NCBI GenBank assembly: GCA_029204225.1
Contig: CM055104.1
Coordinates: forward strand, 40,289,846 to 40,353,845
Direction of reading: 5' to 3'
DNA: 64,000 nt
DNA from: Diphasiastrum complanatum
Lineage: Eukaryota > Streptophyta > Lycopodiopsida > Lycopodiales > Lycopodiaceae
The notes beneath the pieces were generated by a model, which saw only the letters and a list, made by a program, of their open reading frames with translations, was not told the origin of the DNA and did not search any database. Numbering within the stretch: position 1 is the first letter of the stretch; the number at the start of each line of letters is the position of its first letter. Below are positions 3,253 to 63,846 of the stretch, in pieces. The translations under genes and the position numbers were made by a program.

Positions 3253-4672
<1,420 letters not shown>

Positions 4673-13227: not shown

Positions 13228-13379
<152 letters not shown>

Positions 13380-14009: not shown

Positions 14010-15094
<1,085 letters not shown>

Positions 15095-19425: not shown

Positions 19426-19612
19426 TGTTAGGCTTTAGACATTAATCATTAGGATTAGGCTTTAGAAATTAGACATAAGACATTAGTCTTTAGGAATTAG
19501 GCATTAGGGTTAGGATGTAGATATTAATCATTAGAGTTAGGCTTTAGGCATTAGGCATTAGGCATTCGGTTTAGGCTTTAGACATTATGCTTTAGGGTTA
19601 GGCTTTAGGCAT
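19426..19612. repeat. Degenerate telomere-like array, TTTAGGN
   Basis: Alternating heptamers such as CTTTAGG and CATTAGG with several exact GGGTTAGG steps, clearly related to the plant telomere TTTAGGG unit but worn. Confidence 0.75.
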
Positions 19613-20610: not shown

Positions 20611-22194
<1,584 letters not shown>

Positions 22195-23589: not shown

Positions 23590-23760
23590 GTGAGTGTGTC
23601 TATGGTTTTAGGCTTTAGACATTAGGCTTTAGGCATTAGGCTTTAGACATTAGGTTTTAGGCGTTAGGCTTTACGATTTACACCTTACGTTGTAGGCATT
23701 ACGATTAGACTTTAGGCAATAGGCATTGGGCATTAGGATAGGCATTACAAAAGTCAAGAT
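23590..23760. repeat. Degenerate telomere-like array, TTTAGGC/ATTAGGC
   Basis: Alternating TTTAGGC and ATTAGGC heptamers. Confidence 0.75.

Positions 23761-32406: not shown

Positions 32407-32488
<82 letters not shown>
32407..32488. repeat. (CT)n microsatellite left of the LARD-like element
   Basis: Pure TC run of about 82 bp that touches the LTR start. Confidence 0.98.
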
Positions 32489-42573: not shown

Positions 42574-43508
<935 letters not shown>

Positions 43509-50096: not shown

Positions 50097-50508
50097 GGAT
50101 ATTGTTGTAGGTTTGGAGAAGAGGCCAACAACACAACAAGAACAATTGAGGTATGACAAGAGAGCTAAAGAGCTATACACATGATAAAGATGAATCTTAC
50201 CAATGAACTTCTCAAGGAAGTTGGTAAGAGTACTTCATCAAAGGATGCTTGGGATTCATTAAAAAAGCTTTATGAATCCAAGTCTACATTTAGAGTTTTG
50301 ACTCTAAGAAGACAAATCTTTGAAAGTTTGAAAAAGAATGAAGAGAGTCCAAATATTTTTGTTATGAGAGTGAAGGCTTTGAATGATGAGTTAGCTTGCA
50401 TTGATGAGAGTATTAAGGAAGGAGAGCTTGTTCAAGTTATTCTTAATGGTTTGTTGGATGCTCATGCCAACATTGTACAAATTCTTGCCATTCAAAGAAC
50501 TTTTCCAT
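50097..50508 (+). pseudogene. Copia gag fragment inside the LARD copy
   Basis: From TTTTGGATATTGTTGTAGG onward the sequence matches 6914-7327 of the copia gag at 6024, including AWDSLKKLYESKS, LTLRRQIFESLKK, LNDELACIDES and ILNGLLDAHANIV. There is a frameshift at about 50170. At the same place the first LARD copy has about 110 bp of its own sequence (near 39655-39765), which the fragment appears to replace. Confidence 0.88.
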
Positions 50509-51751
50509 AAAAGTTAACTGGAAAGATAATATATGAAAATATCTAAATCCTAGAAAAGTTAATAATAAGTGCTTCCACTAAAGGATTCACCCTCCACAGA
50601 GATATTCCATGGTTTAAGAAATTAAAACATTTTAACCTTAGAATTTATCTGAATTCCAAGTCTATTCACACAAGTAGTAATTTATATGACATAACAGTCT
50701 TTTAGAAGAATAACTTCATGCTGGAAAGAATCATGTAAATCAGTCTGATATCCTATATTCGACAAATTACTAAGAAGTAAAGGATTAATTAAGAAAGCGA
50801 GAAATAGATTTGAGGGCCTCTGATTTTGTAAATAATGAGATACCACATTGGGATCTAGATTAAACCTCAAAATTTTCCAAAATACCCCACATTTGATCGA
50901 ATGGTTTTCTTCTTTCCCATATCACGACTAGGTCCTAAACACACCATTGATCATCAGATCTTCACAGTCCTAGAATTTTCTTTCCAAAATTACTGATGTC
51001 CCATACCATCAGCTTTTCCTTCCAGAAAACTCTTAATCGTCTTATCTGATATTCTAGAGATGCATTGATCATCTAGCTGTCCTACAATCACTATAGGAAT
51101 TATCTTTTGTCCCCAAGCATTGGAGAATCCTTTTATTTGGATGACTGGCATGCCTATCAGATGGATACCCAAAATCCACATCTGATTATGTGACTTAGAC
51201 AGAAGAATTAACATGGTTCAATATTACATCCTGATCTTTTTTGGTTAATAAGTAAGCTTCAAATCCCCTACTGATGCATCAAATCTAGGGACAAGCTTCT
51301 TTAACAGATCCAATGTACTCCATGTATCAGACTCTACTTCTAAAATCACAATTGACACCCAAAACTGTGGATAACTCAATGGTTACAAAGATATAAGCTA
51401 TGAATTCAACTAAATGAATTCTATCCAGAAAATTAATAACTGGTATTAAGCAATTATTGACTAAGATTATCAAAATCCTAATTGCGAAATACATTTCCCA
51501 ATCACACTTACTACCTCTGATGTCCACTCTTCTTCCCTCAGAATTTTCAGTTTTCTGAAAATCTATTTCAGCTAAGGTACTAAGAAGACGTTACAACATT
51601 AGTAAATGTTTAAAATTAATTACTGTAGGAAAAAATCTGAAACAATTTCATTTCTATCCTATACCTGGGTTGAATAACTGATATACCAAAAAACATCTAC
51701 TAGTATGAAAAAACACTACTAGTCTAATCTTTTGAATATAATTCACTATAG

Positions 51752-52080
51752 GACATGTGCATGTTTGCACTCTTCATGCAGAAGTTAGATTAATAGAAAA
51801 GATCATTTATCTTCATATAGTTTTTGCTTGGATTACTAAGCCAGCATCATTAGCAAAGGAAGCTATCTCTCGATTAGAAGATGTTTTATCAAAAGAAGGA
51901 CTCCATAAAGGACTTGTCAAAATTCAAAAAGATGAAACGCTTCTAGGAAAGAATGGGAACATGCCAACTAAGCCAATCATAGGAGGAGCAAAAGCACGTC
52001 GTTTTCTATCAAATCATACTGGTAAGGCTTCTAATATTCAACACTCAATCTGGACAGATATTATAAGTGGAATACAATGA
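51752..52080 (+). CDS. Unrecognised exon, possibly upstream part of a C48-peptidase gene
   Basis: About 109 codons open from a possible acceptor (TTCACTATAG before 51752) to TGA at 52080. The reading is well composed and not repetitive: CTLHAEVRLIEKIIYLHIVF, SLAKEAISRLEDVL, LLGKNGNMPTKPIIGGAKAR and FLSNHTGKASNIQHS. I do not recognise the family. It lies on the same strand and 0.6 kb upstream of the C48 peptidase exons, so both may belong to one gene or element. Its last 36 bp overlap, antisense, the end of the minus-strand gene at 52045-52607. Confidence 0.45.
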
Positions 52081-52607
52081 ATAATGGGAGCTCCTTAAAG
52101 GAACATTCCCATCAGTAAAGCCTAAAATGTTCAAAACATAAGATCTTTTGACAAAAATGATCTTATTTGTCTTAACAAATTTATGTCCTCCTAAATAAAA
52201 TGATAAAGCTTTAACTGCCATTATAAGACTCTCCCCGACTGGGCTCAGCTTGGAATGAGCAATACAGATCTCACTCTTCAAGAAATGCCGAAGATAGTGG
52301 CCCAGTCCACTGTCCCTCTGGAACGAGAATGCGTGTTGTCTGAAACCACCTCGTCTCGCAGCAAAATCATCTATTATGAGAGCATCCTGCAATAGGAAAT
52401 ATGTTAGCAAAAACACATTCAGTGATTGAAAACATTCAAATGCAAGGAAGATTAAACACTTACACATTCTTCATCATCAGCAGCAACCAGATCGGGATGA
52501 TCAATATAATGACCACGTACTGAAGTGGAATCATTAGTGAAATGCATTAATGATGGACGAGGGAAGCCCATCCAGCTTGGAGGTAAACTCTTCTTTCTTA
52601 ATAACAT
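52045..52607 (-). CDS. Two-exon gene of unknown function
   Basis: Minus strand. Exon 1 (52607-52464) starts at ATG and ends at a consensus donor (TGT|GTAAGT); exon 2 (52386-52045) follows an acceptor TTCCTATTGCAG. Joined, they give 161 codons without a stop and with matching phase 0. The product includes PPSWMGFPRPSLMHF, GHYIDHPDLVAADDEEC, FAARRGGFRQHAFSFQRD, GLGHYLRHFLKSEICIAHSK and VKRSYVLNILGFTDG. No signal peptide, membrane segment or known motif. An upstream AG at 52621 would extend the frame further, so ATG may be internal to a longer gene. Its intron is typical in size (77 bp). Confidence 0.55.
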
Positions 52608-52693
52608 TTTGAAATCAATATTCTAATGAAATATTTTCAATCTAATTCATTTTGTTTCATAATTGATTTCTTGTGTGCTGAATTATTTTGCAG

Positions 52694-53035
52694 TCACCCC
52701 AGCAAAATGATTCATTCAGTTGTGGGTGGTACACATTGTACAATGCCAAGCTGTTTTTTGAATGGTTCATCCTTCAACAAGATGTTGATATTTCTAAGGT
52801 AATAAATTCTGTTTATTCTTATTTTGGAATCATGATTAGTTTTCTATTCTGGTGATGTTATTGGCCATTACTAATACATGAATGTTCTATTTTGCAGTTT
52901 ACACTTCCTGAGTACACATCAAGCCAGGTGTACAGATTTAGACAAGAAATTATCCTGAGTATACTGGCTCGGGCAAGGCTTCAGCCTCCCGTTATTGATG
53001 ATGGTGCAAAGGATAATGTAGTTGTACTAAATTAA
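52694..53035 (+). CDS. Ulp1/C48-type cysteine peptidase C-terminus, two exons
   Basis: Exon 52694-52798 begins after TTATTTTGCAG and ends at AAG|GTAATA; exon 52898-53035 begins after TCTATTTTGCAG and ends at TAA. The joined frame is open. It reads SPQQNDSFSCGWYTLYNAK, which holds the catalytic Gln and Cys of C48 (SUMO/ubiquitin-like-protein) peptidases in the usual Q-x5-C spacing with C-G after, followed by the Arg-rich C-terminal helix (VYRFRQEIILSILARAR). The catalytic His and Asp would lie in upstream exons that I could not find. C48 domains occur in host genes and also in plant DNA transposons. Confidence 0.7.
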
Positions 53036-53403
53036 GATCAGAAAAAATATAGATAGCATAGAACAAAAATACATGTATAGACTTCATAGCAAAATATACT
53101 TGATATATCAAATGCTGTTCCAGTTTATGAATTTGGGAGCACAAAATACATGTATAGATGCCCAACTTGGGCTTTCATTTATTGAATGAAAGGGTGTATA
53201 CACAGATTTTTACTAAAGTTTATTTGAGACTATTGTTCTCCCACAATCGTGATTGTTGTAGCTAGATCTTTGTAGCATGTTATCAGCTCCTGTCTTTTTC
53301 ACATCTGTGACATGGCAAATATTAGTGAATGTGCAATTGTAAATGATGACATTTTCTATTATTTTGTTCTATTTTGAAATGGCAATAAGCATAAAGTACT
53401 TAC
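53036..53403. other. Intergenic or intron sequence
   Basis: No coding frame. The right edge is the splice donor of the minus-strand exon ending at 53404. Confidence 0.4.
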
Positions 53404-54171
53404 AAGTCTTCCGTTGATGATAAATCTGAAATATGTTGGTAGATTGGTTTGTAATAGCATGAGCTCTGTTCTGATAAAATCAGGCTTCCAGTGCTCTTCC
53501 ACCTCAACCATAGATTGTAGATAATGCTTATCTCCATTCGGTTTGTGTGACCATTTAGTTCAAAGTCTTGATCTAGTGGTAGCCATGTACCTTCAATTTT
53601 CTTGTATCTCTGGTAGCTAAATGTGAGACTGAGCATTTGCCTTTCGATATGATAACAAAAGATCATTGAGGACTTTTTAATCCTGCATTCTATGTCATTA
53701 TTTGTTTTACTATCCCAGCCTTGATCCATGAGATTTGACAAAGTCTCATCTGATAAATCCTTGCAAACAAATAAAGTTGGTGTCCTACGAACACTAGCAC
53801 TCGAGAAAAAATCAACAAATGTATGCAATGAGATAAACCAACTTAGGTAAACAATTTTTGTGCCTGTGCTTATCTTCATAGCATTTTTAATATCAATGAG
53901 TAGCTTGCATCTCAAGGATTCAGAAACAATGCTGTCAGGAGTAGGCCACTCATCACTTTGAAAACTAGGCAATGGAATTGCTTCGAGCTTGCCAAAACCT
54001 CCATCTGTTTGTGGCGTATATAAAGATTCATAAAAATAGATACCACAATCTACAAGTTCCTTTGGACTTCTTCTTTTGTATTGTATCTTTTCAACATCAG
54101 AGTGAATCACGTCTAATATTTCTGCAAGTGATTTCGCTGGCTCCCATCACTTATGCATGATGGATATAAAT
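53404..54171 (-). pseudogene. Unrecognised minus-strand exon with one early stop
   Basis: The exon is bounded by an acceptor (TTTTTTTCTTTCAG before 54171) and a donor (GACTT|GTAAGT at 53403). After an in-frame TGA at 54149-54147 it is open for about 248 codons: WEPAKSLAEILDVIHSDVEK, RSPKELVDCGIYFYESLY, RTPTLFVCKDLSDETLSNL, IFCYHIERQMLSLTFSYQR and GTWLPLDQDFELNG. I do not recognise the family. It lies on the same strand as the genes on both sides, so it may be part of the same transcription unit or element. Confidence 0.5.
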
Positions 54172-54539
54172 CTGAAAGAAAAAAACAATGTTGAAGCATT
54201 TAAATCATAATCTGAAGAGCATCAATAAAGGAAATCACCAATGGCAGCTGACAGTGTTCAAGATCAATTGCCACTTGCCAAAGTATACTATCGTGATGCG
54301 ATGTTGGCAGATAGTGGGAATCAAGATTTATGGCATGGACCACTTCAAAATGGATTGTCAGGACGAATAAGTGCTTCCTACTGCACAAGAAAGACTTCAA
54401 CATGGCGCGTCTGGAGTTCATAAAGAAGGTGCAGTACCATCTTATAAAAGTACGATGAGAGGCCACTCAAAGCCCCAAGTGAATAAATCTCGCGAGGTGT
54501 CGTGGGATTGCCACCAGTTTTGGTGGTGGATATTGTTGG
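54172..54539. other. Unassigned DNA
   Basis: Contains overlapping frames of about 60-90 codons on both strands, none with a motif. The block ends where LARD LTR sequence begins. Confidence 0.35.
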
Positions 54540-54808
54540 TGTCATGGCCATATTCGGTTAAGGACCTGGAATAGTCCTAATATGGTAGACCGACCCTCCA
54601 ATATTCGAGATTTTGTTGATCACACCATGATTTAAATCCATGTCAAGGCCAGTTTGTGACTAATTACCTTGAGAGGACCCAGACACTCTAATTGAGATAT
54701 ATGGAGTACTGCATGTCTGTGTGACGGATATTGTTATAGCCATATTCAGTTAAGGACCTGGAATAGTCCTAATATGGTAGATCGGCCCTCCAGTACTCGA
54801 TATTATTG
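54540..54808 (+). repeat. Two LARD LTR 5' ends in tandem
   Basis: TGTCATGGCC at 54540 starts an LTR piece of about 192 bp ending GTGACGGATAT; TGTTATAGCC at 54732 starts a second piece of about 77 bp. Both are the first part of the LARD LTR, in the same orientation. Confidence 0.85.
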
Positions 54809-56399
54809 TTAACAACTCTCTAATGGTATGCTAGGACAGAGACTTAATGTTTGGAGAATTCTCTTCCCTGTTGGTGGCTATGGTGTGTGATTAAAAGATT
54901 GTTGCAACCTATCACAAAATCATTCTTCTTACTCTTGACACAAATTCCAGTCTGGGTAGAGAGGGATTGATCTCTGGATTTTCCTCTGTTTTAGAATTAT
55001 TGTTGAGATTATGAGAATGGTTGGACAGATCTCATCTCTTGGAAACTTGAATGCTGTGAAATCAGATGAGTAAGGCAATAACTTTTTGCCGCTGTTAAAC
55101 TCGTTGATATGCGCCCTTGTTTACTTCTTTTGATTGCAGATCGATCTCATACAAGGGCTATGGAGATCGTTGGCAACTTGTTTGTTGCTTAACAGTTCCA
55201 TCGATTGGTCGTGCCATGAGAAACTGGAGGCTGCAAAGAAGGAGGTTCAAGATCTGTGGAGGTGCCCGAACAGTCATTGTGTGTTTGCTTTTGCTCTTTC
55301 TTGAGGAAAGTTGCGGCCAGAAGCCTTTTTGGAGAGGCGGCCGTTTTGGTTTCGGGGTTACCTTATGCATATTAGGGTATGGAGACCTAGGGTGTATGCA
55401 TAATCTTGATGGTCTTTATATCTTGATGGTATGTTGCCTTGGGCATGCAAGTTTTGCATGTGAAGGTGGAGTGACCAGGAGGCTCGACCCTCATGCAAGC
55501 GCCTTCAAAATTTAGCAGTTTTGGGAATTGCGAATCAGTCGTAAGGATTTTTAATACATGCCAGATGACCATCAGTGTATCAAATTTTTTGACAAGTTGT
55601 AACTTTGATGAGGTTCGATACGAGATTTTCGAACTCAAGTTACTTGCACCCTATCAGTGGAATTTTGGATTCCTGATGCTTAGTTTTCAAACATTAATCC
55701 TAGTTTTGATATTGTTTCCCGAAATAGGGATTTTCCTAGGAACAATATGCATGTATTAAGGCCTTATTTGCTGATTAGTTGGCTTATTATGACATCTGCC
55801 GGTAAGCCCAGAATTGGTGTGGAACTTAGTACCATTGTATTTGTGGTCAGGCAGCAATATTAATCGATTTCAGGTAGAAATTTTGTCGAAACCGATTTTG
55901 ATGGAATGAAAGAGTGGTACGGTTCTTAGGAATATACCCAGTTTAGGAATTCGATTCCTTGGTATGATGCTATTTAAACCATTTAACTCTAGAGGATGAG
56001 TACTCCCAGTAAATGGAGTTAAATTGTATTTTTTCGATTTTCTCCTTTTCAAATTAGTGGAACATCGATCAGTTGGTTATTGTGGTTTTGATGATTGTGG
56101 TCATTAAAATTTAACAAACCAAAGCTTTTGAGATACTTGTTAAATAAGTAATGGTGGAAAATTCATAGTATTTGGAGGTATTTCTTTATTCAACAATATT
56201 ATTTTGGGGGAATACAGTGTGGAAATATCCAAATCCAAATGTTATTTCCCATTAATTACATATAATTTTAATGAAGTAATTCTTAGGGCAGTAAGTTGAA
56301 AAGGGCGAACGGTCCAACTTTATTGGAAAAATTGTAATAATAGGAATTATAGCTGATTTCATTTCGCTGGATCTATGATATATATATAATATATATCTA

Positions 56400-56401
<2 letters not shown>
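54809..56401. other. Unassigned DNA
   Basis: The longest frame, 55117-55515 on the plus strand, follows TTGATTGCAG but has no recognised domain. The region could be the internal part of a LARD-related element, as it follows LARD LTR pieces, but I could not align it. Confidence 0.3.

Positions 56402-56490
<89 letters not shown>
56402..56490. repeat. (AT)n microsatellite, about 44 units
   Basis: Pure TA run of 89 bp. Confidence 0.98.
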
Positions 56491-56495
<5 letters not shown>

Positions 56496-56700
56496 CCGGG
56501 CTGGACGCGGGCAATCCGCGTCCGCGTCCGCATCCGGCCCTAGACGCGTCCAACCTCTGGACACGGGGTCGAACGCGTCCATTTTATTTTTTATTTTTTT
56601 TTTAGTTTTTTAAGCCTGAATACACTAAAGAAAAAAAAATTAATAAAAAGCGGACGCGTCCGGACCCCCGGACGCACCCCTGGCACGTCCACGTCCACTA
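56491..56700. repeat. GC-rich block with GGACGCG/CGCGTCC palindromes
   Basis: A sharp switch from AT repeat to GC-rich sequence. Many copies of GCGTCC or GGACGC in both orientations, including the perfect palindrome CGGACGCGTCCG at 56651-56662. This arrangement suggests a small nonautonomous element, but no clear terminal repeat or target duplication was found. Confidence 0.5.
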
Positions 56701-56777
56701 ATTTCTTGCATGAAAATTTATGTATTAGTTTCATCGGTTTCAAATGATAACTATGCGAGAGATTAGTTTATGCACGT

Positions 56778-58458
56778 CTACTCACTAAATTGGAGACTCC
56801 TAACACAAAAATAGATAGCACCAGTCAATGAGTCAACTCCCTCACTTGAATATAACATGTATTCGGAATCACTCCCCAGAAGCTGTAATCTACTGCTTAC
56901 AGTGTTATGAACCCACACCACCATTTTCATGTAGTACAAACAAGGGTGTTTTGATGTAGCACCGTGAGAGACATTATACATACATTTCAATGTTTTCAAA
57001 TCACCTGGTAAGTGCCATTCAACATTGAAGTCTCCAACTCCTGGAACATTGAGAAATCCTCCATCCATATGGTCCTTGATGATCCTAGGATAAGATGTCC
57101 TTGAGAATATCCATGATAATATATCATGATCCTCTTTCAGCACCTGTCCAAAGAATTAATCATACTTAGTTTACAATGTATTAATACTATTCAATGAATG
57201 TAATGTAATAATGAGGCTAGTTACCTGAAACGTTGCCAAACACCATATATCATTTTCTGACTGGGCACTGAATTTGAAATCTTCTTGGTTCTCTGTTTGG
57301 GATAGAGCACCATTCATGAGAGTTATACTAACTCTTTCCATCTTCTGCCCTTTCACAATTTCTGACTCATCTAACTTAAGTACTATGATTATTTTGCCAT
57401 TCACCTTTTCATAGGTTATATCATAGAATGTGACGATGTATGTCAGCAAGTAATTTAGATCAACAAATAAATTGTTTGATGAATTATAGAATATCGATCT
57501 TCCATCAGTTTCATACACCTCCTCAATATGAAATGGAGTTCCAGTGATCTTACGCATACCTATGTTTAATGTATCCCTTTCTTTCTTTAAGTGGTATGTC
57601 CTAGGGATTGGGACTTTTCTAATTTGAACTTGCTTAAAGGCTTCTCTAATTAGTTTAAATATTGTTGCATATGCTTCCCTACTAATACCTGCAAAATCAC
57701 AAGCACCCTGAACTATAGTCTTATCTAAAATATTTTGAATGTCCACCATCAAAGACTCTGCTATTTTACACTTTACATTTGAAATCCTATTGTTCATCAT
57801 GATACGCTCAGTGGATTTGCAAGTCAATATTGTGCCCAATGACATTCCTAGTGAAGCATTGTCTTTAATATTCCGAGGAGCTACTAATGCAGATCTGCAA
57901 AAAAAAAAGATAGCTAACAAAATATCACCATAGCTGAAATTAAATCCAAATGTCATTGAAAAACTTACAAAATTTAGGATATGCTTACTTGAATGCACAG
58001 ATCCTTCTATTTTGATAACCTCCTTTTGAAAGCGTTTGAATATCCTTGCAACTTTGTCACTTTCGCTTCTTACTTTCAGCCTTCTTCTTTACCAAATCCA
58101 CATCCTTCAGTAATTGTAAGTTTTCAATATGAATAGACTGTAAGACTGATTGCATTTGCTCTAGTTCTGATTTGATATTGATTGCTATCTTCTGTAATGA
58201 TTCATTATTTTTTTGAAGTTGTTCTTCTAACGTCTTTTGGAGATGACAATCTCTATTCTGACAATAAGAGGATATCCGAATTAACTCACCTTCTAAAAAG
58301 TGAACTTTATTTATATAAAGTTGTTTTCCATGGTTTTGCAATCTTTCACAATATCCTAGTAATCCACTATGCCTATTGCATATCCATGTAACTAAATGAG
58401 TTGTCCTGTAACGAGAACGATCTTCAGCAGATATTTGAACTCCTTTGCCTCCTCTTCT
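56778..58458 (-). pseudogene. Three-exon gene, possible transposon protein, one internal stop
   Basis: Minus strand. Exons 58458-57989, 57894-57225 and 57143-56778 have good splice signals (acceptors ACCTTTGCAG, TTTTTTTTTGCAG, TTTGGACAG; donors AA|GTAAGC, CAG|GTAACT) and fully matching phases, about 500 codons. One TGA (58059-58057) interrupts exon 1. The first exon holds a coiled-coil-like stretch (LQKTLEEQLQKNNESLQKIA, then ELEQMQSVLQSI). The second has IIIVLKLDESEIV; the third has GGFLNVPGVGDFNVEWHL-PGDLKTLKCMY and HGATSKHPCLYY. From memory, a similar KL.(G)D, then EW.L.GD.K, then G..SK..C pattern occurs in uncharacterised eukaryotic transposon-linked proteins; the Asp residues could belong to a DDE-type site. 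This is inference. The 5' exons are missing upstream. Confidence 0.5.
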
Positions 58459-59032
58459 CTGCAAAGGTGCCAAATCAACAGAGATATCCACATGTAGATG
58501 ATATAATGTTATCATAAAAAAAATAATAGAGTAATCAGTTGCATCAAAGTACTATGACCAGATTCTATGAAGCAAAACAAAATACTCATCTTTGATTATA
58601 TTATATACTATGTACGATCAATCCAATCTCCATGCTTGTATGCTTGATTCAAATTTGGAAATGCCGCTCATTTTTTCATTCTAATAGGTAGTTGGCGCTC
58701 ATATTTCCATTCTCGTGGAAGGAATGCATATGTAAACATTTTGCAATTTTTCCTGATTCGAATTTGGGGATGGCGGTCATATTCTAGATCCAGTGAAAAT
58801 ATTGCCCTTTTCGTAACCAATGGAGGGAATATTTTTGAATTTAGTCAAGTTATACTGTGAACAGTTAACAGTTCTTAACTGTGACTATAGACACTGTGGT
58901 TAGATCATTGGGAGTTGGGGAGGCCTTGGGAGTGATGTGGGCAAGCAAATAAACAATATTGTTTTATTTATTTTGATATGTTTGTATATCCTACATGGCA
59001 TTCCTTAAAGGGTCTTTTTGATATTGAGAGCT
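58459..59032. other. Noncoding DNA with a diverged direct repeat
   Basis: TTGATTCAAATTTGGAAATG (about 58646) recurs as CTGATTCGAATTTGGGGATG (about 58752), each followed by GCSGTCAT-like sequence. No exon found for the gene to the left. Confidence 0.45.
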
Positions 59033-60015
59033 CCTCTAATGGTGAGCGCCTTGTACTCAGCTTCACATGATGAGAGTGATACAGTATCTTGCTTTTTGGA
59101 AAGCCAAAATATCAAGTTTCCTCCAAGATATATGACATAAGCACTTGTAGATTTTCGATCTGCTCTATCACTTGCAAAATCCGAGTCAGAATAACCAATA
59201 ATAGAAAGATCTTCACTTTTATACAATAAACCAAAATCAAAAGTTGAAGATATATATCTAAGCACTCTCTTGGCCATTTTCCAATGATAAACTGAAGGAT
59301 TTTGCATAGCCTGACTCAACTTATGAACACTAAATCTTATGTCAGGTCTAGTTATTGTGAGCCAAATTAAGGAGCCTATAGGTTCCTTGAAGGATTTCAT
59401 CCCTTTACATTTTGCTCCATAGGTGTTTTTATACTCTTACAATTCAACATATTGAACTTTTTTAACATTGAAAGAGCATACTTAGATTAACATACAAAAG
59501 CTTTATCTTTAAGAAAGTCAATCTCTAATCCTAGAATATAGTGAATTTTTTCAAGATTTTGCATCTTGAACTCTTTTCCAAGTGCAATCTTGGTTTCCTC
59601 AATTAACTTAATATAGCTTCCTGTCAGAATGATATCATCAACATAAATAAGAAGGATGACAATATCTTTATCAAAAAACTTGACATATAAGGAAGGATCA
59701 TAGTTACTAAGATTAAATCCTAGTGACTCAAGAAAGGTGTTAAGTCGAGAATACGATGACCTTGGAGCTTGCTTTAATCCATATAAACTTTTGAAGAGCA
59801 AGCAAACTTTTCCTTCATCATGGATGAACCCAATAGGTTGATCCATATAGATCTCTTCAAATGCATTAGAAACTTCTAGTTGAAGAATTTGCCAATTGAA
59901 AAAACAAGCAAGAGAAATTATGATTCTAATTGACACCATCTTTGCAAATGGGACAAAGGTCTCCTCATAATCATGTCCATATACTTGAGCAAAGCCTTTA
60001 GCACAAAGCCTAGCC
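59033..60015 (-). pseudogene. Copia RT and RNase H start
   Basis: KARLCAKGFAQVYGHDYEETF, IIISLACFFNWQILQLEVSNAF, where the motif-A Asp is replaced by Glu and six codons (LNGYLE) are missing, then LYGLKQAPRSSYSRL, VILLIYVDDIILTG with the YVDD box, IHYILGLEIDF, TAA at about 59496, a short deletion near 59400, then GSLIWLTITRPDIRF, SDSDFASDRADRKST and SSCEAEYKAL, where it ends. The Asp-to-Glu change in motif A alone would probably impair polymerase activity. Confidence 0.9.
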
Positions 60016-60017
60016 TT

Positions 60018-61615
60018 TTACTTGTTGATTGTGCCATCTTGATTATACTTGACTCGAAAAACCCATTTGCAACCAGTGGTATGTTTGTTGGATGGAAGAT
60101 CCACAAGGTCCCATGTATTATTGGCCATCAAGGCATCATATTCCTCCTTCATGGCAAGGTACCATTCCTTTGAGTTGATAGCATCATATACATCCTTCGG
60201 CTCCACATGAGAAATAAAATAGGCACAATTAGTGGAGTTGATTTCCACTTGCTTTCCTCTATCTTCATAGGTAAGCCTTCTAGGCTCGGATCTTTCTCTT
60301 TGAGATCTCCTTGGTGAAAAAATTCGAGGTGAATCCTCCTCAAATCTCGGCCCCATCTCTCCATGATGGTCTTCAAGGGTGATGATTGGAGTATCTTTGT
60401 GAGAATTTTTGAACTCGGCCTTCTCAAGAATGTATTTTTGATCTTCATGGAATATAACATTTCTACTCTCAATTGTAGTTGAGGTAGAGGGAACATAGAT
60501 TCTGTAAGCTTTCTTGTTGGATGCATATCCAACCACGATCCCTTTAACATAATTAGGATCATCTCTTTTCCTTGTTTTCAAGGGCATATTAACAAAGCAA
60601 GTACAACCAAAAACTCTAAGGTGATCTTCCTTAGGTTTCTTCTGAAACAAGACTTCAAAAGGTGTTTTTCCAACAAGAGCATTGTGAGGTAATCTATTGC
60701 ACAAATAGTTTGCACAATTTATAGCTTCACCCCAATATTCAATAGGCAAAGAAGCTGCTACTCGAATTGCTTTAGCACATTCACATAAAGATCTGTTTTT
60801 CCTCTCAACTACTCCATTTTGGGATGGAGAATAGGCACAAGAAAATTCTCTCTTTATTCCTTCACCTTCCCAATAATTATGAAACTTGTTGGAGATATAT
60901 TCACCTCCTCCATCACAACTTAAAGCTTTAACTTTGCAAGAAAACTATTTTTCTACATAAGCTTTGAAGATAAGGAAGTGATAAAAAACCATAGCCTCTG
61001 AAGAAAGTAGATACAACCAAGTGTATCTAGTAAAGTCATCAATAAAGATGACAAAACATGTTGCACCACCAATACTTTTAGAAGAGGAAAAATGTACATC
61101 TGAATGTATGAGTTGCAATGGATAAGTAGTCTTTATAAAAGACTTCTGATATGGCTTTCTGTGTGACTTTGCAATTGCACAAGCTTCACAAAGCTTGAAA
61201 TCTTTAGGAAGAGATTTTGGAAGACCAATAGCCTTCTCCTTCTTAACCATAGAAGACATAGATGTAAAGTTAGGATGTCCCAACCTTCTATGCCACAACT
61301 CCTCCTTAGATAACAAAACAACTTCACAAAGGTTTGCATTCTCATAAGAATTTAACTTAAAAATTCCACCACATCTTGATCCATCAACAAGGATCTCATC
61401 ATTTTTCTTGATAAAACAAGTATTGGAGTTGAACTTTACATCACATCCATTATCAAGCAACTTTCCCACACTAATTAAGCTCTTTGTAAGTTTTGGAATG
61501 AAAAGAACATTAGAAAGTGCAAGAACTTTTGAAGAAGCAAGTTTCAATGGAATGTTGCCAATTCCTTCTATTGGGCACTCATGATCATTAGCTGTGTAAA
61601 TAGATCTCTTGAGTC
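60018..61615 (-). pseudogene. Copia GAG-pre-integrase and integrase, two stops
   Basis: Starts with RSIYTANDHECPIEGIGNIP (upstream TGA at about 61613). Then FIPKLTKSLISVGKLL, GAG-pre LWHRRLGHPNFTSM and CEACAIAKSHRKPY, integrase FIDDFTRYTWLYLL (Asp), a TAG at about 60944-60942, SCDGGGEYISNKF (Asp), PSQNGVVERKNRSL (Glu), FGCTCFVNMPLKTR and RT start CKWVFRVKYNQDGTINK, ending at TAA (60018-60016). All three integrase acids are present. Sister copies have Gln (CAG at 26423 region) and Tyr at the two stop positions. Confidence 0.92.
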
Positions 61616-62782: not shown

Positions 62783-63618
62783 GAAAACCCGATCCATCTT
62801 TGAAGGCATAAAACATTAACAAAAATGTTGTAGCCTTTTTTGGGAACACGTTGAGTCAGCTTTGATCGCAATACCTCTACTGTCTACAAGGCAAGGCCAA
62901 AAAAGAAACGATTGTTTAGGAAGGAGTTCAAATTTGTCGAAATTGGGATTTCTAAAAAAATAGAAGTTCAAATATTGCTAAACTTTTTCTCTACATTAGT
63001 TTCAAACAAAAACTTATCAAGACCGACATGTTGAGTTTGGTAAGAGTGTCGCTTTAGCCACATGCTCGAATCATCATTGCTCTGTTGTTGACATCTTGGA
63101 GCCTTGAGCTCCATGTTTGGGCTCAATCTATAAGTACTTCACGTAAAGTGTAGGCATGTTTGAATTAAGGGTTGGTTCCCACCTAAGGGCCTAAGAGCCT
63201 TTCTTGTTATGAGGTCTGGAGGGTGTTTGATAATGAGGAAGGCATGATCGGGGCCATCCCTGTTGAATTTCAATGCTTAAATTCATTAATTAATGAGCAT
63301 CCTGAAAGATGTACAGAAGATCAAAAAAATATGTTATGCTCGAATTTTCCGACCCCATCAAAAAAGGATTTTCCGAACGTGTTCGGCAGTTCGGATCGGT
63401 TCTAAATTTTCCGACCCTGGTTCAATTTGTGAAAAGAATCCGAACCAATGTAAATTTCGATATTGTCGATCTAAAAGCCGACCCGACGACTTCACGTTGA
63501 CAATCCGCCTACTATGTGCATGCACTAACTGTATGAGGCGATTGGAATAATTGAAGCAAAAAGGTTAGTTGTAGATATTTTGTAGCATATCTATTCTAGA
63601 ATCTTAATCAGAAGACCT
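62782..63618. other. Noncoding DNA
   Basis: No gene recognised; short frames at 63223-63550 overlap each other without a motif. TTTTCCGA repeats occur near 63345-63410. The left edge of the LTR that ends at 63986 may lie in this stretch. Confidence 0.4.
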
Positions 63619-63846
63619 CTTCTGATAATTGTAATCTATCAATCAGATTAATCTGTATCAGCGTTATGACACACAACAAGCTGAAGTAATAACTTCATGC
63701 AATTGTACTCATCTGTTGATAATAATCAGAGTCTTCTGATAATTGTAATCTATCCATCAGATTAATCTATATCAGCGTTATGACACACAACAAGCTGAAG
63801 TAATAACTTCATGCAATTGTACTCATCTGTTGATAATAATCAGAGT
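63619..63846. repeat. 114-bp tandem duplication
   Basis: CTTCTGATAATTGTAATC starts units at 63619 and 63733. The two units differ by only a few bases and both end AATCAGAGT. They lie within the probable LTR upstream of the PBS at 63987. Confidence 0.92.

Follow-up and report, generated by a model that had tools for sequence, protein, structure and literature searches.

The analyzed window, a 64,000-nucleotide stretch of the Diphasiastrum complanatum genome (GCA_029204225.1, contig CM055104.1, positions 40,289,846 to 40,353,845 of the forward strand; G000:C13:40289846-40353845 in the analyzed assembly of 1.74 Gb and 5176 contigs), holds at about 51.7-58.5 kb one damaged, decaying copy of a high-copy, multi-gene DNA transposon family. 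Very probably, the intact element was an autonomous cut-and-paste transposon, about 8-10 kb long and bounded by 35-bp inverted ends. It would have carried four spliced genes, namely gene A for a transposase-like protein, gene C for a protein in which histone H3 is fused to a Ulp1/C48 peptidase, and genes B and D for orphan accessory proteins. A first-pass annotation, based on the window sequence alone, had proposed a decaying DNA transposon with several spliced genes at this place, and the block with its 35-bp inverted ends was indeed found repeated genome-wide; neither of the opposite outcomes that the annotation had listed, single-copy host genes or the lack of a repeated block, occurred.

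Copy number, inverted ends and gene order of the family

Probes from different parts of the element matched at every one of the 40 places scored per probe. The matches were at 97-100% for gene A (a 915-bp probe), at 95-100% for gene D, at 89-100% for a gene A/B piece (74 matches over the 40 places), and at 95-100% for the H3 exon taken from copy C5. First-look candidates numbered 2801, 2249, 2675, and 1950, respectively; the remainder were unscored, and the figures should not be read as numbers of copies. Of ten 20-kb places that were fetched, contig C132 proved to be a near-identical version of the window locus, and the other nine were treated as independent copies. The C48 piece was present, whole or in part, in all ten, and the order of the pieces was constant as far as each copy was preserved. 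Between the inverted ends, the fetched copies hold four spliced genes:

Gene A, plus strand of the element: four exons, transposase-like protein
Gene B, minus strand of the element: orphan of about 480 amino acids (aa), with a CPYCNKKC site and acidic stretches
Gene C, plus strand of the element: four exons, 470 aa, fusion of histone H3 and Ulp1/C48
Gene D, minus strand of the element: orphan of about 390 aa

Copy-to-copy comparison placed the boundaries at a 35-bp inverted repeat, CATTAGAGGAGTTCTCAATATCAAAAAGACCCTTT and its complement, so that the element reads CATTAG...CTAATG. Both ends were found in five of the nine independent copies (C5, C13, C20, C3, and C7), one end in three (C8a, C8b, and C16), and none in C9. 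The ends are exact in C13, C3, and C7, whereas C5 and C20 each have a single mismatch in one of the two ends; in C20 the last base on the right is A, and the termini are otherwise CA..TG. The two-ended copies span 7.8-9.7 kb (C5, 9245 bp; C13, 9731 bp; C7, 8681 bp; C20, 9366 bp by a first boundary estimate; C3, about 7.8 kb by its ends). Dispersed copies with a common inverted repeat are what characterizes a DNA transposon with terminal inverted repeats, and this is the arrangement observed here.

The family looks large and young. In each of the 36 pairwise comparisons among the nine copies, identity across shared element parts was 94.5-96.5%, giving a star-like pattern. Among 1098 singleton changes, 576 were C to T or G to A, and the C-to-T rate per site in these copies was 0.33 at CG, 0.34 at CHG, and 0.10 at CHH. 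The roughly threefold excess of C-to-T changes at CG and CHG over CHH therefore points to a trace of host CG and CHG methylation. These results suggest that the family probably burst once and was then methylated and silenced.

Gene A, pieced together from several copies, gave the pattern D-96-D-20-CxxC-37-HxxxxH-194-E, with the motifs KLDES, GDLKTL, CLYC, HVCTLH, and GMEKSH in this order, read by eye. By sequence, its product would resemble a transposase, its acidic residues and its C(2)C and H(4)H sites following the arrangement of the CMCT (CACTA/Transib-like) clade. The C(2)C site reads CLYC in C5 and C3, and CLYY in the window copy and C8b. No Mutator, KDZ, or hAT model matched gene A exons 2-4 in a scan at E up to 10 of Pfam, which contains models for these families. 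A scan of bacterial and archaeal contigs (genome_contigs) returned no relative of exons 3-4, a result that says little.

Genes B and D had no Pfam match above the cut-off at E up to 10. A weak TnsA-like match on gene D exon 1 (E 0.011, below the cut-off) disappeared when the whole protein was used and was dropped. Counted among copies with the full segment, the exon segments of gene B were open in 5/9, 2/8, and 5/8 copies, and those of gene D in 5/6 and 3/5.

The histone H3 and Ulp1/C48 fusion of gene C

The spliced gene C of copy C7 (470 aa) matched two Pfam families well above their cut-offs, Histone at residues 27-123 (E 1e-27, 97.3 bits vs a cut-off of 26.4) and Peptidase_C48 at residues 316-442 (E 1.1e-10, 42.2 bits vs 20.7). 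The C48 segment reported in the first-pass annotation is real, and the whole domain is present in C7. The window retains only its last exons, which when spliced scored slightly under the cut-off of 20.7 (20.2 bits, E 5.6e-4), and other window frames had Pfam matches only far below cut-off. The whole gene C frame was open in two of nine copies (C5 and C7), and the gene was spliceable by pattern in five of seven elements, two of them open. Among copies with the full segment, the H3 segment was open in 3/9, the linker in 7/9, and the C48 segments in 5/9, 8/9, 7/8, and 6/7.

The nearest chains of the H3 part in the PDB were H3s (best E 7.6e-21, with the C5 exon as query). Among the matches listed, 60 of 175 PDB sequences, 59 were H3 or H3-like and one was a 'Histone domain-containing protein'; two of the listed rows were the Schizosaccharomyces pombe centromeric Cnp1. 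The core of the C7 H3 part (44-131) was identical to plant H3.1 at 48 of 88 positions. The tail keeps R2, K4, Q5, T6, and R8. In contrast to the retained K4, K9 is replaced by Asp in C7 and by Asn in C5, and there is no lysine at 14, 18, 23, or 27. Of the contact residues compared, those kept in both open copies are R40, R69, R83, K115, R116, T118, H113, D123, L126, and R129, and K64 is Arg. Loop 1, with one residue more than that of H3.1, and the LLIPxAPF motif are reminiscent of plant CENH3, but the tail has the KQT of H3. In a nine-row tree (two rows from copies and seven reference rows), the H3 part formed its own long branch.

By sequence, the C48 part is a member of Peptidase C48. Its nearest PDB chains were Ulp1/SENP enzymes (best E 0.001), and its His, Gln, and Cys align with those of Ulp1/SENP, whose catalytic set is His, Asp, Gln, and Cys.

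Proposed functions and alternative explanations

We propose that the gene A protein would bind and cut the CA..TG ends and join them like a transposase of the CMCT clade, with the products of genes B and D as orphan accessory proteins. The H3 part of the gene C protein may pair with H4 and enter or dock on chromatin, where its tail, which keeps K4, would be unable to bear the H3K9 silencing mark because K9 is absent. The C48 part may strip SUMO, or a modifier like it, from proteins in the vicinity that act in silencing or transposition, and the two parts together could keep the element active or steer its insertion. This anti-silencing role of the gene C protein is offered as a tentative suggestion. 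A bolder version, which we consider rather doubtful, would have the element's H3, tethered to the SUMO protease, built into nucleosomes, either on the element or, if the H3 is of the CENH3 type, at centromere-like targets. The K9-less tail and the protease would then give chromatin that the host cannot silence normally, insertion would proceed without target duplication, and the transposon would carry its own nucleosome.

For a transposon, joining an H3 to a SUMO-type protease would be a novel route to interference with silencing, and one open to direct tests. A fusion protein that did enter nucleosomes would amount to a naturally tethered histone, with which one could ask whether loss of K9 on the transposon's own chromatin protects it. 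Maps of host expression, methylation, and nucleosomes could test this in a large, young family without engineering.

Several observations weigh against an originally autonomous element with such functions. The first-pass annotation had suggested a search for repeated copies, shared inverted ends, and target duplications; the first two were found, but exact target duplications of at least 3 bp flank none of the five two-ended copies, and a 2-bp match occurs in one (C13). Exon 1 of gene A is open in none of the five copies that retain the whole exon, and its following segments are open in 4/8, 1/7, and 4/9 copies with the full segment. The first-pass annotation had also described a transposase-like unit with candidate acidic residues; the gene A motifs fit the CMCT pattern, but no Pfam transposase model, of CACTA or other type, matched exons 2-4 at E up to 10, and no PDB sequence matched the window exons 2-3. 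AlphaFold models of the two window exons, built without relatives in line with the structure prediction that the annotation had suggested, had mean predicted local distance difference test (pLDDT) values of 35.7 and 30.1 and were unusable. With contig C132 excluded, the ratio of nonsynonymous to synonymous changes (N/S) over all genes was 0.70 for shared vs 0.97 for singleton changes (p = 0.10, in an underpowered test), so that singleton changes look neutral and shared ones at most slightly constrained, and for gene C it was 0.77 vs 0.82 (p = 0.86). Only gene B differed nominally, at 0.48 vs 1.00 (p = 0.047, uncorrected for four genes). In the H3 part, both open copies deviate from H3.1 at R49, R63, C110, and A114; C7 has also lost R72, and C5 has lost K122. 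In the C48 part, no Asp of gene C aligns with the Asp of the Ulp1 triad; therefore, the protease may be weak or inactive.

Among other explanations, the H3 and C48 pieces may be idle passengers, that is, fragments captured by transduplication. The excerpted literature describes gene capture as common in plants (PMC13317346) and a fungal hAT element with an H3-like gene of unproved use (PMC3538342), and gene C has no selection signal within the family. Against this, both domains lie in one open 470-aa frame with four exons and matched phases in two copies, and the H3 part, although diverged (about 52% of plant H3.1 across the alignment), preserves much of the histone fold. A recent idle capture would be expected to be near-identical to host H3 or broken, so the diverged open frame counts against passengers, which we regard as unlikely. 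It is more unlikely still that the block is a CACTA (EnSpm) element with ordinary accessory genes, in which the H3-C48 protein would be the second, end-binding protein rather than one acting on chromatin. The CMCT motifs and CA..TG ends would suit such an element, but the CACTA transposase match in Pfam is missing, as is a target duplication of at least 3 bp in five of five copies. To our knowledge, the histone fold is not known as an end-binding module in CACTA elements, which also speaks against this explanation.

Viral histones are known, according to the excerpt of PMC9145170, and the block might accordingly be read as the remains of an endogenous DNA virus or a Polinton-like element. This is highly improbable, since the scanned pieces contained no polymerase, capsid, or packaging family at the Pfam cut-off and only a few weak matches to viral families, far below the cut-offs, whereas both the 35-bp ends and the pattern of acidic motifs are in keeping with a cut-and-paste transposon. 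Scans of viral contigs (viral_contigs), which need near-exact short peptides, likewise returned no relative of the two window exons or of gene C. We give practically no credence to a cluster of host genes, one for a SUMO protease and one for a centromeric or variant H3, that would be next to repeats only by chance. Its attraction is that the genes are spliced and have recognizable host-type domains, but it is already refuted by the repeated block with its ends, in dispersed copies that are 94.5-96.5% identical and share the inverted repeat.

The preferred reading, a four-gene cut-and-paste transposon, has partial parallels among known systems, which are compared here as far as the excerpts of the cited papers describe them. 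Transposons with anti-silencing or chromatin-modifying genes include Vandal with VANC, HarbingerS with SET, and elements with TET/JBP (PMC12730594, PMC13317346). In the fungus Pyrenophora tritici-repentis, an H3-like gene has been amplified with a hAT transposon, with 26 H3L genes reported (PMC3538342). Both this transposon and the element described here are DNA transposons that have inverted ends and an H3-like gene as cargo; they differ in that the fungal element has a hAT transposase, a long form of about 5.6 kb, and a separate H3 gene, whereas ours has CMCT-like motifs, about 8-10 kb, an H3 fused to C48, and at least 40 matching H3 exons among the places scored. The Ulp1-carrying Mutator elements without terminal inverted repeats (Kaonashi/KIU and VANC; PMC13317346) are likewise plant DNA transposons with Ulp1/C48, some of them tied to anti-silencing. 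In contrast, our element has inverted ends and no match to a Mutator transposase model, and the excerpt on KIU and VANC names no histone.

With the CMCT clade (EnSpm/CACTA, Mirage, Chapaev, Transib, Plavaka, ESTA, and Lanisha; PMC12730594), the element shares D-D-E with C(2)C and H(3-4)H and the CA..TG ends. It differs from the 2-5 bp target duplication described for the clade by having only one 2-bp match, by the lack of a Pfam match, and by its H3-C48 cargo. In the absence of that duplication, we therefore do not file the element as a CMCT member, although it looks to work like one. Cryptons with a C48 peptidase (PMC3212892) also have C48 as transposon cargo, but they are described with a tyrosine recombinase and, in CryptonS, with terminal direct repeats of 5-6 bp, whereas no recombinase family was matched here. 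Fungal DNA transposons with TET/JBP (PMC12730594) similarly carry a chromatin-related gene as cargo, but theirs is a DNA dioxygenase, not a histone or a SUMO protease. C48 cargo and, in the one fungal precedent found, a transposon-borne H3-like gene had each been described before. Our search of the open-access literature on transposons with H3 or Ulp1/C48 found no fusion of H3 with a protease, and one may still be in print.

Structure of the window copy and neighboring features

The element features of the window copy are as follows:

59007..59041, minus strand: left 35-bp terminal inverted repeat, differing from the family end at one position (by chance, 0 in 100 shuffles)
57989..58515, minus strand: gene A exon 1, with a basic, coiled-coil-like N-terminus, about 90 bp missing at 58402, and an in-frame TGA at 58057-58059
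57225..57894, minus strand: gene A exon 2, which includes KLDES and in it the first candidate catalytic Asp
56922..57143, minus strand: first part of gene A exon 3, which includes the second candidate Asp, in GDLKTL, and the C(2)C site
51755..52064, plus strand: second part of gene A exon 3, which includes HVCTLH as the H(4)H site; inverted in the window copy
52062..52386, minus strand: 5' portion of gene B exon 2, the remainder deleted
52464..52572, minus strand: gene B exon 1, 3' end, the remainder lost in a 3-kb deletion
52573..52582, plus strand: gene C exon 2, last bases; the H3 part, the linker, and the first half of the C48 domain are deleted
52694..52798, plus strand: gene C exon 3, the C48 segment PQQND..SCGW, with the candidate catalytic Gln and Cys
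52898..53035, plus strand: gene C exon 4, up to the stop codon
53230..53304, minus strand: gene D last exon, with a stop at the second codon in the window copy
53404..54171, minus strand: gene D main exon (orphan), with a frameshift near its 3' end in the window copy
51753..56365, no strand: segment in the opposite orientation to contig C132 and to the arrangement of the other copies
54244..56365, no strand: non-element stretch, containing a repeat also found at about 32.5, 42.1, and 47.7 kb

The limits of 51740..58460 given in the first-pass annotation have to be revised, with the inverted end of the element lying at 59041 and 54244-56365 not belonging to it. Apart from an (AT)n run, none of the nine independent copies matched 54244-56365. 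At 56366-56921, none of the four element copies compared matched, and contig C132 had no match longer than 150 bp. Sequence is missing from the window copy at 52572/52573 (about 3 kb), at 52062-52064 (further pieces), and at 58402 (about 90 bp), as is all of the element that lay to the right of 54243. The end of gene A exon 3 and exon 4 with the candidate Glu are deleted, and gene D exon 1 was lost together with the right end. The losses of the window copy thus take in the right end and, among the genes, exon 4 of gene A and the H3 part of gene C. The inversion splits gene A into 56922-58515 on the minus strand and 51755-52064 on the plus strand. The internal inversion, the deletions, and the H3 fusion of the fuller copies could not be recognized from the window sequence, on which the first-pass annotation was based.

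The coding potential of the remains is still evident. Frames of 305 aa (57171-58088) and 248 aa (53400-54146) lie on the minus strand; after dinucleotide shuffling of 51740-56366 and 56922-59041, repeated 200 times, no frame exceeded 175 aa, and the longest frames of the single shuffles averaged 109. The C48 exons are joined over consensus introns with matching splice phases (52573-52582 / 52694-52798 / 52898-53035, phases 0 and 0), and gene A exons 2-3 join by phase-0 splice sites (57225 / 57143). The spliced coding units that the first-pass annotation had seen on both strands were therefore partly upheld, in their long frames and in these matched phases. However, the first gene A intron matches in phase only in the frame that the TGA at 58057-58059 interrupts in the window copy, and the units are remains of four genes, with gene A split by the inversion.

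The separate contig C132 (126 kb) carries the same locus at 99.3-99.7%, with the segment 51753-56365 in the opposite orientation. Either the haplotypes differ in structure here, or the assembly is wrong near the (AT)n run at 56378-56491. The repeat within the non-element stretch, at 54540-54804, recurs at about 32.5, 42.1, and 47.7 kb, once as a close direct pair of 73-bp copies.

The window contains AT-rich sequence with frames that were read by eye as Copia-type and are hence plant-like. Such frames, named by eye, flank the element at 59005-61613 and 50169-50510, and the left terminal repeat abuts the RNaseH-like end of the frame at 59005-59436. Degenerate arrays of TTAGGCA-like heptamers, resembling the telomere type and located inside the chromosome, occur at 19428-19612 and 23608-23747. 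Eight long and perfect (CT)n/(GA)n runs were found, at 325-431, 3873-3973, 13231-13377, 14977-15092, 20614-20803, 21964-22096, 32407-32488, and 42576-42692. Additionally, a 114-bp tandem repeat in two copies, with 98% identity, lies at 63618-63846.

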